Source: Thermoproteota archaeon
Lineage (GTDB): Archaea > Korarchaeota > Korarchaeia > Korarchaeales > Korarchaeaceae
Direction of reading: 5' to 3'
DNA: 64,000 nucleotides
NCBI GenBank assembly: GCA_027491415.1
Contig: JAOZFH010000026.1
Location: 62,001 to 126,000, forward strand
Shown: in pieces, positions 9,126 through 16,445 of the stretch
Numbering within the stretch: position 1 is the stretch's first letter
Layout: each line of letters opens with the position of its first letter
Program-made: the position numbers and the translations under genes
Notes under the pieces: model-generated
The model's input: the letters and a program-made list of their open reading frames with translations, nothing else
Told to the model about the DNA's origin: nothing
Database searches by the model: none

Positions 9126-9914
9126 TCACAGGTGATATGGGAGACCCTCCTCGCCTTCCTTTCTCTCCTCCCACTCCCGCCTTCTCTCCAAGGCCTGCCT
9201 AGCCTTCTCCTCAAGCAGGGATCTCACGGACTCCTCCTCCTTTATCAGCTCGTCCAGCCCAGAAAGATCGACGTTCAACCCATACAGCTTCTCTAACAGG
9301 AGGATGAGTCTCTTAGAGGCCCTGGGATCCGGTCTCTGCCCCTCAGTGGTGCTCAAGACGCAGGCGCTGGGGATGCCCCGCAGGTGACCCAGCCCAACCA
9401 GCAAACCTGCTGCGCCCGTGACGAACCCCCCCTGGAGCCTCATCACACCAGCCGCCTCCAGCTTCTCCCAGAGCGAGTCGTCGTTGGAGGCGGCGAACAC
9501 GCCCTCCACGTCGGGGCTCCCCGGCACATAGCCGCCGAAGGTCAGGAGCTCCTCGACCCCCAGCTCCTGAGCATAGTCGAGAACGAGTTCGCCAACCGAG
9601 TACTGGCCCCACGGAATGGGTTGAACGTCTGAGGTGAGGAGGAGGAAGTCCACTTCAGCGCTGGGTTGGCTGAGGTAGTAGAGGTAATAAGCGGGGGGCA
9701 CCACATCCCCGTCCGAGACGCTGACCCCCGCGCTCCCGTCGGGGAGCGGGAGATAGTCGCTGAAGATCCTAGCTACGAGCCTCGGGCTGGCGTTGTCTAT
9801 TAGGTACTGAACCGCAATCTTTCCAACTAGCCCCAGCCCCGGCACCCCCTGGACGAGCACCAGTTTGCGCTCGGGCTTCACCTCAGCAACCCTGACCAGC
9901 TCTAGGTGGGGCAT
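9126..9914 (-). CDS. PAC2-family protein (proteasome assembly chaperone-like)
   Basis: A 262-residue PAC2 (COG1938/2047-type) protein. It shows the GVPGLGLVGKIA opening, an SDVQPIPWGQY strand-loop, and a Glu/Arg-rich helical tail (residues about 215-255). Archaeal members resemble eukaryotic Pac2/PSMG2 assembly chaperones, but their function is not firmly established. It starts at ATG 9914, 23 bases from an AT element shared with the divergent flavoprotein gene. A second PAC2 gene lies 3 kb away in the radA operon. Confidence 0.8.
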   Translation of the reverse strand: MPHLELVRVAEVKPERKLVLVQGVPGLGLVGKIAVQYLIDNASPRLVARIFSDYLPLPDGSAGVSVSDGDVVPPAYYLYYLSQPSAEVDFLLLTSDVQPIPWGQYSVGELVLDYAQELGVEELLTFGGYVPGSPDVEGVFAASNDDSLWEKLEAAGVMRLQGGFVTGAAGLLVGLGHLRGIPSACVLSTTEGQRPDPRASKRLILLLEKLYGLNVDLSGLDELIKEEESVRSLLEEKARQALERRREWEERKEGEEGLPYHL

Positions 9915-12339: not shown

Positions 12340-12686
12340 CTCCCCACACTCTCCTCTCCCGGTCCGAAGAGGGAGTTCACGAGGCTCCTCAGGAAGTTCT
12401 CTGCCTCCCTCAGCACCTCCCTGCCCTTGTCGGTTAGCTCGTAGTAGTTCCTGACTCTCCCTTGGCTGCTCTTCCTCCTCACTATGCGGATGTACCCGTC
12501 CATCTCGAGTCTCTTCATGACGATGTAGCCCGTTACGCGCGCAGGCTTCCAGCCAAATCTCTTCTCCATGAGATCCGGTATTTCGTAGGGGTACTTCGGC
12601 CCGTCCTTGAGTAGAGTGAGTATGTATAGCCAGAGGTTCTCTATCGTGAGCTTCCTCTTGAGCCTCTCGATGGGCGTAGCCATCAC
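12336..12686 (-). CDS. PadR-like winged-helix transcriptional regulator
   Basis: A 116-residue PadR-type protein: helices with LYILTLLKDGPKYPYEI, a recognition segment VTGYIVMKRLEMDGYI, and a wing with SSQGRVRNYYELTDKGREVL, then a C-terminal helix for dimerization. These are usually local repressors. GTG 12686 overlaps the PAC2 stop as GTGA; ATG 12683 is the alternative. It is wedged between a PAC2 gene and DUF354 with overlaps on both sides, so it is cotranscribed with both and may control this operon. Confidence 0.78.
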   Translation of the reverse strand: MMATPIERLKRKLTIENLWLYILTLLKDGPKYPYEIPDLMEKRFGWKPARVTGYIVMKRLEMDGYIRIVRRKSSQGRVRNYYELTDKGREVLREAENFLRSLVNSLFGPGEESVGS

Positions 12687-13480
12687 CCCACGTATCCCGT
12701 CTCATCCGAACCGGTCGATGTCATGGAGGATATCTGCTCCTCGAGCTGACGTAGGATGCTCCTCTTCATCTCCTCGAACTCTCTTATCCTCCTTTCTATG
12801 CTCCCCAAGTTTAGTTGAAGGTTCAGGGCTGAGTTCAGAATCTTCAGAACCTCCCCTGCAGCCCTGAAGTCGGGGGCCGAGGTCTCGGAGACCCCCGTCA
12901 AGGAAACGTACGGCAGGTTAAAGAGCTTGGCAGACGCGAGAGTGGCTCCCGCCAGGCCGACTATGGACTTCATGGGAGTCTTCTCCTCTGCGCCGGCGGA
13001 GATGATCCTCTGGAGCAGGTCCGAATTGGTTCCAAAGGCCAGCACCCGCCCCGCTATGTCCGGATCCGCGAAGCCGGTCACGACGAGAAGCGAGCTGGCC
13101 CCGAGGGACATCAATTTCCCCAAGAGCTTGGACGCGACCTCGAGCTGGCCCCAAGGGACCGGCTGGACCTGACTCGTGATCAGGAGGAGTCTCCCGACAC
13201 TCGAGACTTTTTCTCTGGTGTGATAAATGTCGATCGAGGGCAGTTCGAAGCTGCCGTCTTCGGATATCGATATGCCGGCAACGTTACCCGGGAGGAACAG
13301 GTACTCCGAGTAAAGCCTCGCCAGCGGCTCGGCTCCCAGCTCCTCCGAGAGGTAGGTGACCACGCCCGCCCCGACGTTGGCCACCCCGGGATACCCGGCT
13401 ATGGCCAGCCCGTAGCCCCCTGCCGGTTCACCGAGTATAGAGAACTTCAGCCAGCCCATTTCGCCAACTACCTCGACCAA
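12683..13480 (-). CDS. PAC2-family protein, second copy
   Basis: A 265-residue paralogue of the PAC2 protein at 9126-9914. Both share the GYPGVANVG or GVPGLGLVG opening, a QVQPVPWGQ motif and a helical C-terminus. TTG 13480 is preceded by GAGG six bases upstream; ATG 13459 begins at the conserved part. It lies in frame with the upstream TtuA-like gene, separated by one TAG and five codons, which I take as chance. Function is probably a chaperone or adaptor role related to the proteasome, by homology only. Confidence 0.76.
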   Translation of the reverse strand: MVEVVGEMGWLKFSILGEPAGGYGLAIAGYPGVANVGAGVVTYLSEELGAEPLARLYSEYLFLPGNVAGISISEDGSFELPSIDIYHTREKVSSVGRLLLITSQVQPVPWGQLEVASKLLGKLMSLGASSLLVVTGFADPDIAGRVLAFGTNSDLLQRIISAGAEEKTPMKSIVGLAGATLASAKLFNLPYVSLTGVSETSAPDFRAAGEVLKILNSALNLQLNLGSIERRIREFEEMKRSILRQLEEQISSMTSTGSDETGYVG

Positions 13481-13495: not shown

Positions 13496-14476
13496 CTAAT
13501 AATTTGAGTTAGCTTGGGGTTGACGCGGAAAGAGGAGGGGCCTGTGGGCCAGCCCCTGCAGCTCCAGCTTCATTTGGCAAGTCTTGCAGATCTCACCAGT
13601 CGTTGGCTCACCGCACAGCTTACACGACCTTAACTCGACACCAATCGCCCCGGAGGCCCTGACCTCTCCTATCACGGCCCACAGGCCCGAGAGTAGGTCC
13701 TCCTTGATTCCGGGAATGGCGAGTTCGAGCTCGTCGATCGACCTCCTGAACCCAACCCTCATGCCGGTGGTCAGGGGGCACTTGCCGAAGTGCGCCGGGA
13801 GGCCCAGATGGAGGGCGGCGGCCGCCACCTCCCTCTCCCTCACCCCGGCAAGCGGTCTGATCCTCGGAACCATGAGGGGGGACGGAGACCTTACCCCCTG
13901 ACCGGACCTCACCATGGCGGGGACGTCACCCCGAGCCAGGTTCATCAGGTGAGTCTGGAGTACGTCGTCTAGGTTGTGGCCGGTCGCCACCTTGGTGGCG
14001 CCCTCCTCCCTGGCCACCTTGTTAATGGCCCACCGCCTCAGGACTCCGCAGTAGGTACAGGCCGACCTCCTCCAGCGCCTGGGGAGGATCGACCTGATCT
14101 CCGCCACGTCTATCCCGTGGATGTCCCTCATCCCCACAACTACGTGCCTCACGCCCAGCCTTCGGGTCAGCTCGCGGGCGGCTTCTATGCCGGACCTTCT
14201 GTAAGCGGTCCCCTCGTCCACCGTGATGGCCATCAAGTCGAACTTCCTCCGCTCGACGCTCTGGTACTCCGACAAGAGGTACAGCGCGAGGGAGCTATCT
14301 TTCCCGCCCGAGAGCGCCACGGCGACCCGATCCCCGTCCTCGACGAGCCTGTCGAGCATCGAGAATACCCTTCTCCGGATGTCTTGAACGAGGCACTCGC
14401 CGCAGAGGTTCTCGTTGGTGCGATGAACCGTGTGAATGGCCTCTCTCAATCCACACCGGTCGCAGGCGGGACGCAA
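13496..14476 (-). CDS. ttuA: tRNA 2-thiolation enzyme, TtuA/Ncs6 (TIGR00269) family
   Basis: A 326-residue protein with an N-terminal zinc ribbon (CDRCG then CGEC), the PP-loop SGGKDS near residue 57, the catalytic ACTYCG cysteines near residue 140, and a C-terminal zinc ribbon (CKLCG, CKTC). The family adenylates a tRNA uridine and replaces oxygen by sulfur, either U54 (TtuA) or wobble U34 (Ncs6/NcsA). The two cannot be separated without an alignment. It starts at TTG 14476, six bases after the ubiquitin-like sulfur-carrier gene, the kind of protein that supplies its sulfur. It ends in TAG. Confidence 0.87.
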   Translation of the reverse strand: MRPACDRCGLREAIHTVHRTNENLCGECLVQDIRRRVFSMLDRLVEDGDRVAVALSGGKDSSLALYLLSEYQSVERRKFDLMAITVDEGTAYRRSGIEAARELTRRLGVRHVVVGMRDIHGIDVAEIRSILPRRWRRSACTYCGVLRRWAINKVAREEGATKVATGHNLDDVLQTHLMNLARGDVPAMVRSGQGVRSPSPLMVPRIRPLAGVREREVAAAALHLGLPAHFGKCPLTTGMRVGFRRSIDELELAIPGIKEDLLSGLWAVIGEVRASGAIGVELRSCKLCGEPTTGEICKTCQMKLELQGLAHRPLLFPRQPQANSNY

Positions 14477-14482
14477 GGCTCA

Positions 14483-14692
14483 TCACACGCCCGGGTGGTG
14501 CACGGTGATCCTGACGAACCTCACGTCGTCCCCATCGGAGAGGTACATTCTCTCGGGCGCGGGAGATCCGTTCACGACGGGAACGTGGGCCTCAGGGTGA
14601 TAGCCGAGTTCGCGCATGAGCTCAGATATCCTCATGTGGGCGTCGACCGATACCTCCTCCCCCTCCAGCCGAACTCGAACCTGCCGCCCCAT
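14483..14692 (-). CDS. Ubiquitin-like sulfur carrier (MoaD/ThiS/TtuB/SAMP fold), lacking terminal GG
   Basis: A 69-residue beta-grasp protein: two strands (RVRLEGEEVSV), a helix (RISELMRELG), and the family turn PVVNGS followed by LSDGDDVRFV. It sits between radA and the TtuA-like thiolase, so it is probably the sulfur donor for tRNA thiolation. Working carriers end in Gly-Gly, which is adenylated and thiocarboxylated; this one ends HHPGV. Either the last Val is trimmed, one Gly suffices, or the protein is used differently. ATG 14692 is preceded by GTGAGGG at a good distance. Confidence 0.7.
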   Translation of the reverse strand: MGRQVRVRLEGEEVSVDAHMRISELMRELGYHPEAHVPVVNGSPAPERMYLSDGDDVRFVRITVHHPGV

Positions 14693-14703
14693 TTGATGGG
14701 CCC

Positions 14704-15753
14704 TCACACGTCCTCGACGCCGCCCCCTGTGATCGCGACCTCCGCCGAGTCCTCTGGCAGGTAGGGGCTCTTGACCAGCTTGACCAGCCTGCGGTTCCCC
14801 TTGGCCCGCTTTATGTAGAGTCTGGCGGTCACCCCGTGCCCCAAGACGTGGCCTCCCGCCGGCCTGTTGGGGTCCCCGAAGAAGGCGTCCGGCTGGGCGA
14901 GGACCTGGTTGGTAACCAGCACCGCCAGGTTGTACCCCAGGGCGTACCTCAGGAGCCTGTGGAGGTACTTGTTCAGCTTCTGCTGACGCGCGGCCAAGTT
15001 CTCCCTGCCGACGAACTCCCCCCTGAAGTGGCTTATCAGCGAGTCCACGATGATCAGGCCGATGTCGTACTTCTTCAGGTACGGCTCCGCCTTCTCCGTC
15101 ACGACCATCTGGTGGTCGGCGGTGAAGGCCCTGGCCACCAGAATGTTCTTCAGGGTAGTCTCCGGGTCGAGTTCGAACCTCTCTGCTATCTGAACGATCC
15201 TCTCGGGCCTGAATGTCCCCTCGGTGTCTATGTAGAGGCACCTGCGACCGAGACCGCCCCTCTCAGGCTGGAGCTGAACGGTGACGGCAAGCTGGTGACA
15301 CAGCTGGGTCTTACCACTGCCGTAGGGCCCGTAGATCTCCGTTATGGCCTGGGTCTCGACTCCCCCTCCCAGCAGGTCGTCTAGGGCCTTGGTGCCGGTT
15401 GTTATCCTCTGAACGCTCTTTCTCCTCTGGTAGTAGTCAAAGGCGGTCATCACATCGACCTTCAGTATCTTCCTAGCCGACGCGATGATCTTGCTGGCCG
15501 TGGACATCGGTATCCCGGCCGCGGCGGAGAGCTCCGCAGGGGACGTGAGGGCTATCGACTCGAGGGTCGTGAAGCCAGCCTCCGTGAGCCTCTTCGCTAT
15601 GGTCGGCCCGACCCCGCTCAGGGTGGTGAGGTCGACCTCCTCGAAGGCCTCGGCCTCGTCCAGCTCGTCAAGCGGGGGAGACTCGGGCTCCTCTTGGGCC
15701 TCCTCTCCCCCTTCCCCCTCCTCGGGCTCCACCTTCTTCTTGGCCCTTGGCAT
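14704..15753 (-). CDS. radA: RadA recombinase
   Basis: A 349-residue RecA/Rad51-family recombinase. An acidic N-terminal tail of about 35 residues precedes a helix-hairpin-helix domain (LSGVGPTIAKRL). The ATPase core has Walker A GPYGSGKTQ, Walker B LIIVDSLISHF, and an NQVLAQPDAFFGDP L2-side segment. It forms filaments on ssDNA made by the NurA-HerA-Mre11-Rad50 set encoded 6 kb away. ATG 15753 lies 27 bases from a shared TATA element, so the message is nearly leaderless; the longer open frame upstream is the opposite gene's territory. It heads a leftward six-gene operon. Confidence 0.95.
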   Translation of the reverse strand: MPRAKKKVEPEEGEGGEEAQEEPESPPLDELDEAEAFEEVDLTTLSGVGPTIAKRLTEAGFTTLESIALTSPAELSAAAGIPMSTASKIIASARKILKVDVMTAFDYYQRRKSVQRITTGTKALDDLLGGGVETQAITEIYGPYGSGKTQLCHQLAVTVQLQPERGGLGRRCLYIDTEGTFRPERIVQIAERFELDPETTLKNILVARAFTADHQMVVTEKAEPYLKKYDIGLIIVDSLISHFRGEFVGRENLAARQQKLNKYLHRLLRYALGYNLAVLVTNQVLAQPDAFFGDPNRPAGGHVLGHGVTARLYIKRAKGNRRLVKLVKSPYLPEDSAEVAITGGGVEDV

Positions 15754-15775
15754 CCCTGCTGCGCGGCGGCGCGGG

Positions 15776-15785
15776 GATAATAATG
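15776..15785. promoter_or_regulatory. Shared TATA element, radA operon and ogg
   Basis: GATAATAATG lies about 27 bases from the radA start at 15753. In the other direction it would place a transcript start near 15806, just before the ATG at 15810 of the ogg frame, which supports that shorter start. Confidence 0.45.
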
Positions 15786-16445
15786 TCGCGCGTGACAAAG
15801 TTTGACCAAATGAGAAGGCTTGCCGATGCCGTTCAGGAACTCGCAAGAGATCCCGAGGTCGGGAGAACGGTGAGGGAGAGGGTCAGGGAGTTCGAGGAGA
15901 TAGGGCGAGGAGGCTGGAGGCTGTGGGCCAGAGAGCTGGCGTTCTGCGTCTTGGCCGCCAACTTCAAGGCCGTCGAGGCTTTCCGGATGGCTAGCCGCCT
16001 GTGGGAGACCGGCGCGCTCTTTGAGGCCCCAGTGGGCGAGGTCGAGGAGATCCTGCGATCCATGGGACACAGGTTCCCGAGGACCCGGGCCGAGTACTTA
16101 GTGTCGAACAGACCCCTCCTCCGGAGCATTAGGGAGGTGGTGCCTAAGCTGAGCTCTGAGAGGGCGAGAGAGTGGCTGAGGGAGAACGTGCGGGGACTGG
16201 GGATGAAGGAGTCCAGCCACTTCCTGAGGAACATCGGGAGGAAAGACGTGGCCATAATCGACCGGCACATACTGAGGGTCATGCGCGAATATGGGCTCAT
16301 AGGGGACATCCCCAGGAGCCTGACGAGGGGTAGGTACCTCCAGCTGGAGGGGATCCTTCGGGGGGTCGCCGCGGAGGCTGGCCTCAGCCTAGCCGAGCTG
16401 GACCTCTGCATGTGGTACATGAAGACCGGCTTCATCTTCAGGTGA
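15783..16445 (+). CDS. ogg: 8-oxoguanine DNA glycosylase/AP lyase, Ogg2 family
   Basis: A 220-residue HhH-GPD glycosylase matching archaeal Ogg2. The helix-hairpin-helix [15 protein letters not shown] carries the catalytic Lys and is followed by the catalytic Asp in IIDRHIL. It removes 8-oxoguanine opposite C. Family members usually end with Lys, which I recall contacting the lesion; this one ends FIFR, so Arg replaces it. The start is uncertain: ATG 15783 gives 220 residues, while ATG 15810 gives 211 and fits both the shared TATA element and the usual N-terminus (MRRLADAV). Confidence 0.87.

Follow-up and report, generated by a model that had tools for sequence, protein, structure and literature searches.

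The window, by which we mean the whole 64,000-nucleotide stretch of archaeal DNA analysed here, encodes on its minus strand a 69 aa ubiquitin-like protein that lacks a C-terminal Gly-Gly (GG), and the gene for this protein lies between radA and a gene for a tRNA thiolase. The features of the locus are listed below, with the evidence for each in brackets.

14483..14692, minus strand: GG-less SAMP2/ThiS-type ubiquitin-like protein, 69 aa, ATG start, stop codon included (14486-14692 without the stop codon) (ORF, Pfam, model)
14483..14512, minus strand: C-terminal tail RITVHHPGV and stop codon, with R-I-T-x-H where a GG end would be usual (alignments)
13496..14476, minus strand: NcsA-type tRNA 2-thiolase, 326 aa, TTG start, with the PP-loop SGGKDS, cluster cysteines Cys140/143/233, Arg147 and terminal Cys pairs (profiles, alignment)
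14704..15846, minus strand, ORF limits: radA, upstream of the GG-less gene (NCBIfam NF003301, 449 bits)
12683..13480, minus strand: PAC2-family protein, following the thiolase gene in the conserved gene order (Pfam, locus comparison)

The ubiquitin-like protein begins MGRQVRVRL and, by ORF translation, ends VRFVRITVHHPGV followed by the stop codon. The initial annotation had described a β-grasp carrier-like protein without GG between radA and a thiolase gene, and the ORF, the profile match and the structural model all confirm this description. It had also stated that no frameshift restores the GG, and indeed a GG is absent from all three forward frames of the minus strand around the stop codon.

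Fold and profile matches of the GG-less protein

Relatives were sampled among 61 genomes, 24 of which belong to the archaeon's own family (probably Korarchaeaceae). Pfam names the window protein SAMP2 (27.6 bits vs a cut-off of 27), with the ThiS and ThiS-like models below cut-off, and all 15 tested family members match SAMP2 when E values up to 1 are allowed. The TGS model is matched by three of the 15, at least one of them over the cut-off. As for membership in the MoaD/SAMP1 group, MoaD models were absent from the protein's NCBIfam matches up to E 1.

The AlphaFold2 model (mean pLDDT 89.9) has a β-grasp fold, with predicted strands at residues 4-9, 12-17, 36-40 and 56-61, a helix at residues 22-29 and a pLDDT of 76 in the last residue block. 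A Foldseek search with this model returned SUMO chains at ranks 1 and 2 and, at rank 3, TtuB of the TtuA-TtuB complex (5gha_F, E 2.2e-4, 26% identity). VIA-align placed ThiS first (1zud, Z 9.3), a TGS domain at rank 4 (Z 8.3) and TtuB lower (5gha_H, Z 7.5). The predicted structure is thus a β-grasp like that of ThiS and TtuB, as had been expected from the letters. Held against the SAMP2/ThiS/TtuB group, the protein has the β-grasp fold, by profile and predicted model, and lacks the C-terminal Gly-Gly (0/24 family members). A shared fold alone proves nothing about function.

The adjoining thiolase and its pairing with the carrier-like gene

The thiolase gene lies 6 bp downstream of the gene for the GG-less protein. 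Its best NCBIfam match is NcsA (156 bits, cut-off 500), followed by TtuA of Pyrococcus (118 bits); neither score reaches the equivalog cut-off. A profile built from 14 thiolases found NcsA of Methanococcus maripaludis (6scy, 277 bits) to be the closest solved structure, with TtuA of P. horikoshii at 227 bits and TtuA of T. thermophilus at 199 bits. The PP-loop, the three cluster cysteines and the Cys pairs at both ends, all features of NcsA/Ctu1, are present, and the active-site residues of NcsA are intact; Cys140, Cys143, Cys233 and Arg147 are invariant among the 14 rows. According to the portions of the published work available to us, the cluster ligands of Methanococcus NcsA are Cys142, Cys145 and Cys233 (PMC10067955), and Lys137 of TtuA, which is Arg in other organisms, is needed for taking sulfur off TtuB (PMC7138817). 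Judging by spacing, we read Arg147 as the likely counterpart of this Lys137. The neighbour had been called TtuA-like; the tRNA thiolase part of that name stands, and by best profile and closest structure NcsA (wobble U34), rather than TtuA, is the nearer relative of the protein. The genome encodes a second thiolase, G000:C56, which is TtuA-type (159 vs 104 bits, both under cut-off). This gene (L096:3634-4575) is very divergent, with a branch of 3.16 changes per column.

In all 24 family genomes the carrier-like gene immediately precedes the thiolase gene, on the same strand. By the chosen start they overlap in 18 of the 24, and the other gaps are 4, 6, 6, 48, 115 and 329 bp. Sixteen thiolase positions are specific to the family, and three of them fall just before the third cluster cysteine, Cys233. 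G231 and K232 occur in 24/24 family thiolases and A228 in 23/24; Lys is found at position 232 in one of 22 other carrier-adjoining thiolases (21 with a GG carrier, one with a carrier ending SRG). The family-specific changes near Cys233 would fit the new tail of the partner, but as a single event (n = 1).

A conserved tail replaces Gly-Gly across the family

The ubiquitin-like protein is encoded in every one of the 24 family genomes. The T and H of a T-x-H motif near the C-terminus are invariant in all 24 members, none of which ends in GG, so the comparison of C-termini in relatives that the initial annotation had proposed bears out its observation on the window protein. Downstream of the conserved His, GG occurs in only three tails, always internally: two genomes of one genus share the tail TVHKE[ML]GG plus an extension, and one more genome has HFSPVGGRG. 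Shuffling the letters of the tails gave a mean of 1.4 tails holding GG, with P 0.15 for three or more. Across 19 representatives with less than 85% identity, conservation of the protein peaks in the five-residue window R-I-T-x-H (mean 0.52 bits) and the columns past it are among the least conserved, the residue directly after the His being H, F, E, K or V. In one alignment His65 falls, with no gap, on the first of the two terminal Gly of the carriers; in a more diverse alignment a gap opened and the last two letters of the window protein, GV, paired with GG. The equivalence of His65 with the first Gly of the carriers is therefore likely but not certain, as it depends on the alignment.

Three explanations had been offered for the missing GG, i.e., trimming of the terminal Val by a protease to expose Gly, use of a single Gly, or a change of role. 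Seven of the 24 members have no Gly at all after the conserved His, and because of this neither trimming nor a single Gly can be the solution adopted by the family. A change of role fits a GG-less tail beside a tRNA thiolase.

In the comparison of the window genome with its sister species, the gene has a dN of 0.019 and a dS of 0.108, and dN is below dS in eight further related pairs (dN/dS 0.04 to 0.22; the pairs were chosen by hand and are not all independent). In none of these eight further pairs is there an amino-acid change within the eight residues that start with R-I-T; silent changes occur there in seven of the pairs. By these substitution rates the gene of the GG-less protein is under purifying selection. 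Together with the conserved R-I-T-x-H window, the excess of dS over dN rules out a pseudogene.

Carriers outside the family and the origin of the loss

A search of 297 genomes with the family profile at E up to 1e-7 matched 60 genomes, the 24 of the family and 36 others. The matched carriers of all 36 hold GG, with the proviso that His-tailed relatives too divergent for this threshold would escape the search. When 33 of these carriers were retrieved together, 32 had GG at the very end and one had GG plus three residues; the other three end in GG. A second sample was based on the thiolase and covered the best 80 of 553 confirmed stretches. It contained 21 carriers, 19 ending in GG, one in SRG and one in a His tail, after a 22nd row (158 aa, E 0.26) had been dropped as a non-carrier. 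The His-tailed carrier, L109, is a member of the 24-genome family. The SRG carrier, which also adjoins a thiolase gene, is from an Aenigmatarchaeota genome (L134:3772-3975) and is possibly a second departure from GG in another lineage.

In a genome of another family of the same class, G025, the carrier ends RVVSGG and adjoins a thiolase gene, with a neighbouring gene that looks alike by eye. The thiolase of G025 is sister to the 24 thiolases of the family (support 97/94) on a long branch. Because this sister pair and the outside carriers keep GG, the simplest reading of the sequences is that GG was lost a single time, in the family stem, and a new conserved tail gained. The genus with the HKE[ML]GG tails and extensions branches first within the family, at a fork that is not strong (91/84), and this position would fit a GG that was first displaced and only later lost.

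Other sulfur machinery

The initial annotation had suggested looking in the genome for a canonical GG carrier, an E1-like UbaA and a JAMM protease. The latter two were found. The E1-like protein (G000:C8) is MoeB/UbaA-like, its best NCBIfam match being MoeB, under cut-off; full or near-full E1-like matches occur in 16 of 18 searched family genomes, and the two without are 71-72% complete. JAMM matches occur in 15 of 17 searched family genomes, one of them weak and interrupted. In addition, a strong aminotransferase-V match at G000:C5 is likely a cysteine desulfurase.

With regard to GG carriers, four were found in the genome, but all four match TIGR01687 (MoaD/SAMP1-type), three over cut-off, and none is SAMP2/ThiS-type. 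One is fused to MoaE beside moaA/moaC-like genes, and the others lie, by eye, beside oxidoreductase-like genes. These four are all the PF02597 matches, and a GG-ended ThiS-type carrier elsewhere in the genome was rejected on this account. Likewise, no second SAMP2/ThiS-type carrier was found in this genome, which is 96% complete, by PF02597, the protein itself or the family profile. PF02597 matches are present in all 18 searched family genomes. In six of the other family genomes we examined the tails of 19 of 21 matches, the other two being weak matches in G017 (E 0.013 and 0.042); all 19 have GG, 14 at the very end, and we read these carriers, without a profile, as MoaD-type. The E1-like protein, the JAMM protein and the desulfurase may serve such carriers rather than the GG-less protein.

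Several MoaD-type carriers have residues or domains after the GG (L093:3872-4141, L196, L197, L199, L202 and L205, e.g., PPVGGGSPEVL). Such extensions would need cleavage, which fits the JAMM gene in these genomes.

RadA, PAC2 and the gene neighborhood

The NCBIfam match of radA begins near residue 69 of the ORF, which probably places the true start inside the ORF limits listed above. An unusual genetic link to RadA had been proposed. The neighborhood is kept, with radA nearby in all seven other family loci examined, yet in five of the seven another gene intervenes before the carrier-like gene, which makes a working link unlikely. As the neighborhood is the sole evidence for it, we rejected RadA as a working partner; it is probably only a neighbor, and we read the conserved block around radA as a housekeeping neighborhood. 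The order conserved in these loci is radA, carrier, thiolase, PAC2, regulator, glycosyltransferase, NADH oxidase and second PAC2, the regulator, glycosyltransferase and NADH oxidase being assigned by eye. The two PAC2-family genes (12683-13480 and 9126-9914 in the window) keep their positions in the block across the family. Several relatives have a divergent gene upstream of the carrier that is absent in the window (L090:563-1279, L098:5595-6302 and L103:7530-8231), which by eye we take to encode a hexapeptide-repeat (γ-carbonic-anhydrase-like) protein. A ThiS-PAC2 link is mentioned for Thermoplasma in the part of PMC2948915 consulted.

Comparison with known systems

Two elements of this arrangement are already known from the accessible parts of earlier papers. 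Archaeal ThiS-type genes adjoin arCOG00042 PP-loop genes, as found in a study with Ca. Korarchaeum among its species (PMC2948915), and there are β-grasp families without a C-terminal glycine (PMC1779556). As far as the latter source describes them, however, those glycine-less families have no conserved end residue, whereas here the orthologues of GG carriers keep both the adjoining thiolase gene and a conserved end. In the literature searched, a body with subscription journals mostly outside it, we found no description of a korarchaeal NcsA whose paired carrier lacks GG.

The closest parallels are three. TtuB-TtuA of Thermus thermophilus (5gha, 5ztb) likewise joins a β-grasp partner to a PP-loop [4Fe-4S] tRNA 2-thiolase, a likeness seen in both model and profile match, but in our family the terminal Gly-Gly is absent, an invariant His and extra residues are in its place, and the thiolase is nearer NcsA. 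The Haloferax pair SAMP2-NcsA (PMC11323500, seen in part) recalls ours in that SAMP2 is the best Pfam family of the GG-less protein; that carrier and the archaeal ThiS carriers have GG, in contrast to 0/24 here. Methanococcus maripaludis NcsA shares the three cluster cysteines with our thiolases but was, in the sections of PMC10067955 available, assayed with sulfide and without a ubiquitin-like partner.

Proposed role and alternatives

The reading that we favor, with confidence about evenly divided for and against, is that a former GG carrier lost its GG in the family stem and is now a permanent, non-covalent subunit of an NcsA fed by sulfide or by another carrier. The ancestor would have been a normal GG-ended SAMP2/TtuB-type sulfur carrier serving NcsA, whose GG end would have been lost in the stem with the conserved R-I-T-x-H tail in its place. 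Adenylation by E1 in the known way would then no longer be possible, and its role as a thiocarboxylate carrier would therefore have ended. The protein would dock on NcsA as TtuB does on TtuA, but permanently and non-covalently, with its tail reaching toward, entering or capping the iron-sulfur active site, and the sulfur source would be either a MoaD-type carrier or, as in the assays of Methanococcus NcsA, free sulfide. What leads us to a non-covalent subunit is that the protein has lost its carrier end, has stayed beside its partner gene and has its best conserved window in the new end.

Published accounts, in the parts consulted, provide some chemical background. The C-terminus of TtuB binds the unique iron of the TtuA [4Fe-4S] cluster, which has no protein ligand, and TtuA can use sulfide (PMC7138817); NcsA is active on sulfide in vitro (PMC10067955); and such thiolases are able to accept free sulfide as well, some organisms having no such carrier (PMC7138817, PMC10067955, PMC11323500). 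A more specific proposal, to which we attach rather little weight, is that the invariant His, at the place of the first carrier Gly by the gapless alignment, enters the active site of NcsA and acts there as a ligand or a gate for the open [4Fe-4S] iron, the one to which the C-terminus of TtuB binds in TtuA. This would make the former carrier a permanent part, in trans, of the catalytic site of a sulfide-fed thiolase. The contact of the His could be with the cluster iron or with the sulfide.

Several observations run against the subunit reading. Since Methanococcus NcsA works in vitro without such a partner (PMC10067955, in the portion seen), the chemistry does not demand a subunit. An internal GG is present in three of the 24 tails, and the register of His65 on the carrier Gly depends on the alignment. 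The E1-like protein, the JAMM protein and the likely cysteine desulfurase leave room for unusual carrier chemistry, and the protein might accordingly still be a sulfur carrier, with a tail that a protease (JAMM) processes or with activation at an unusual C-terminal residue. That this machinery is encoded, that the internal GG tails exist, that Gly is the last residue in two tails and that some MoaD-type carriers of these genomes have residues after GG would all suit a continuing carrier; the seven tails without Gly after the His, the poorly conserved columns past the motif and the variability of the residue right after the His make it improbable.

A role outside NcsA chemistry altogether, such as TGS-like binding of tRNA or protein, or regulation of NcsA or of a proteasome-related neighbor, with sulfur supplied only by sulfide or MoaD carriers, strikes us as unlikely, though it is the most serious of the alternatives. 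It draws on the TGS matches in three of 15 members, on the TGS domain among the close folds and on the PAC2 gene as a conserved neighbor. A shared fold is, however, no evidence of function, SAMP2 is matched by all 15 members, and the strict, mostly overlapping pairing with the thiolase gene in 24/24 genomes points to NcsA. That the protein is a decaying relic on its way to loss we consider very improbable: its defining GG end is gone, but the gene is kept in 24/24 genomes with dN below dS, and its best conserved window lies within the new tail. Finally, a frameshift or an error at the 3' end from sequencing or assembly, to which we give practically no credence, is ruled out by like GG-less tails in 24 genomes and by the lack of any frame that would restore GG.

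If the protein is indeed a subunit of NcsA, one lineage would show how a ubiquitin-like sulfur carrier can turn into a fixed part of an enzyme while its partner enzyme is kept. The family would then offer a natural experiment on whether NcsA/TtuA thiolases depend on the β-grasp partner for anything besides sulfur carriage, and on how thiolases of the NcsA/TtuA type run on sulfide alone.
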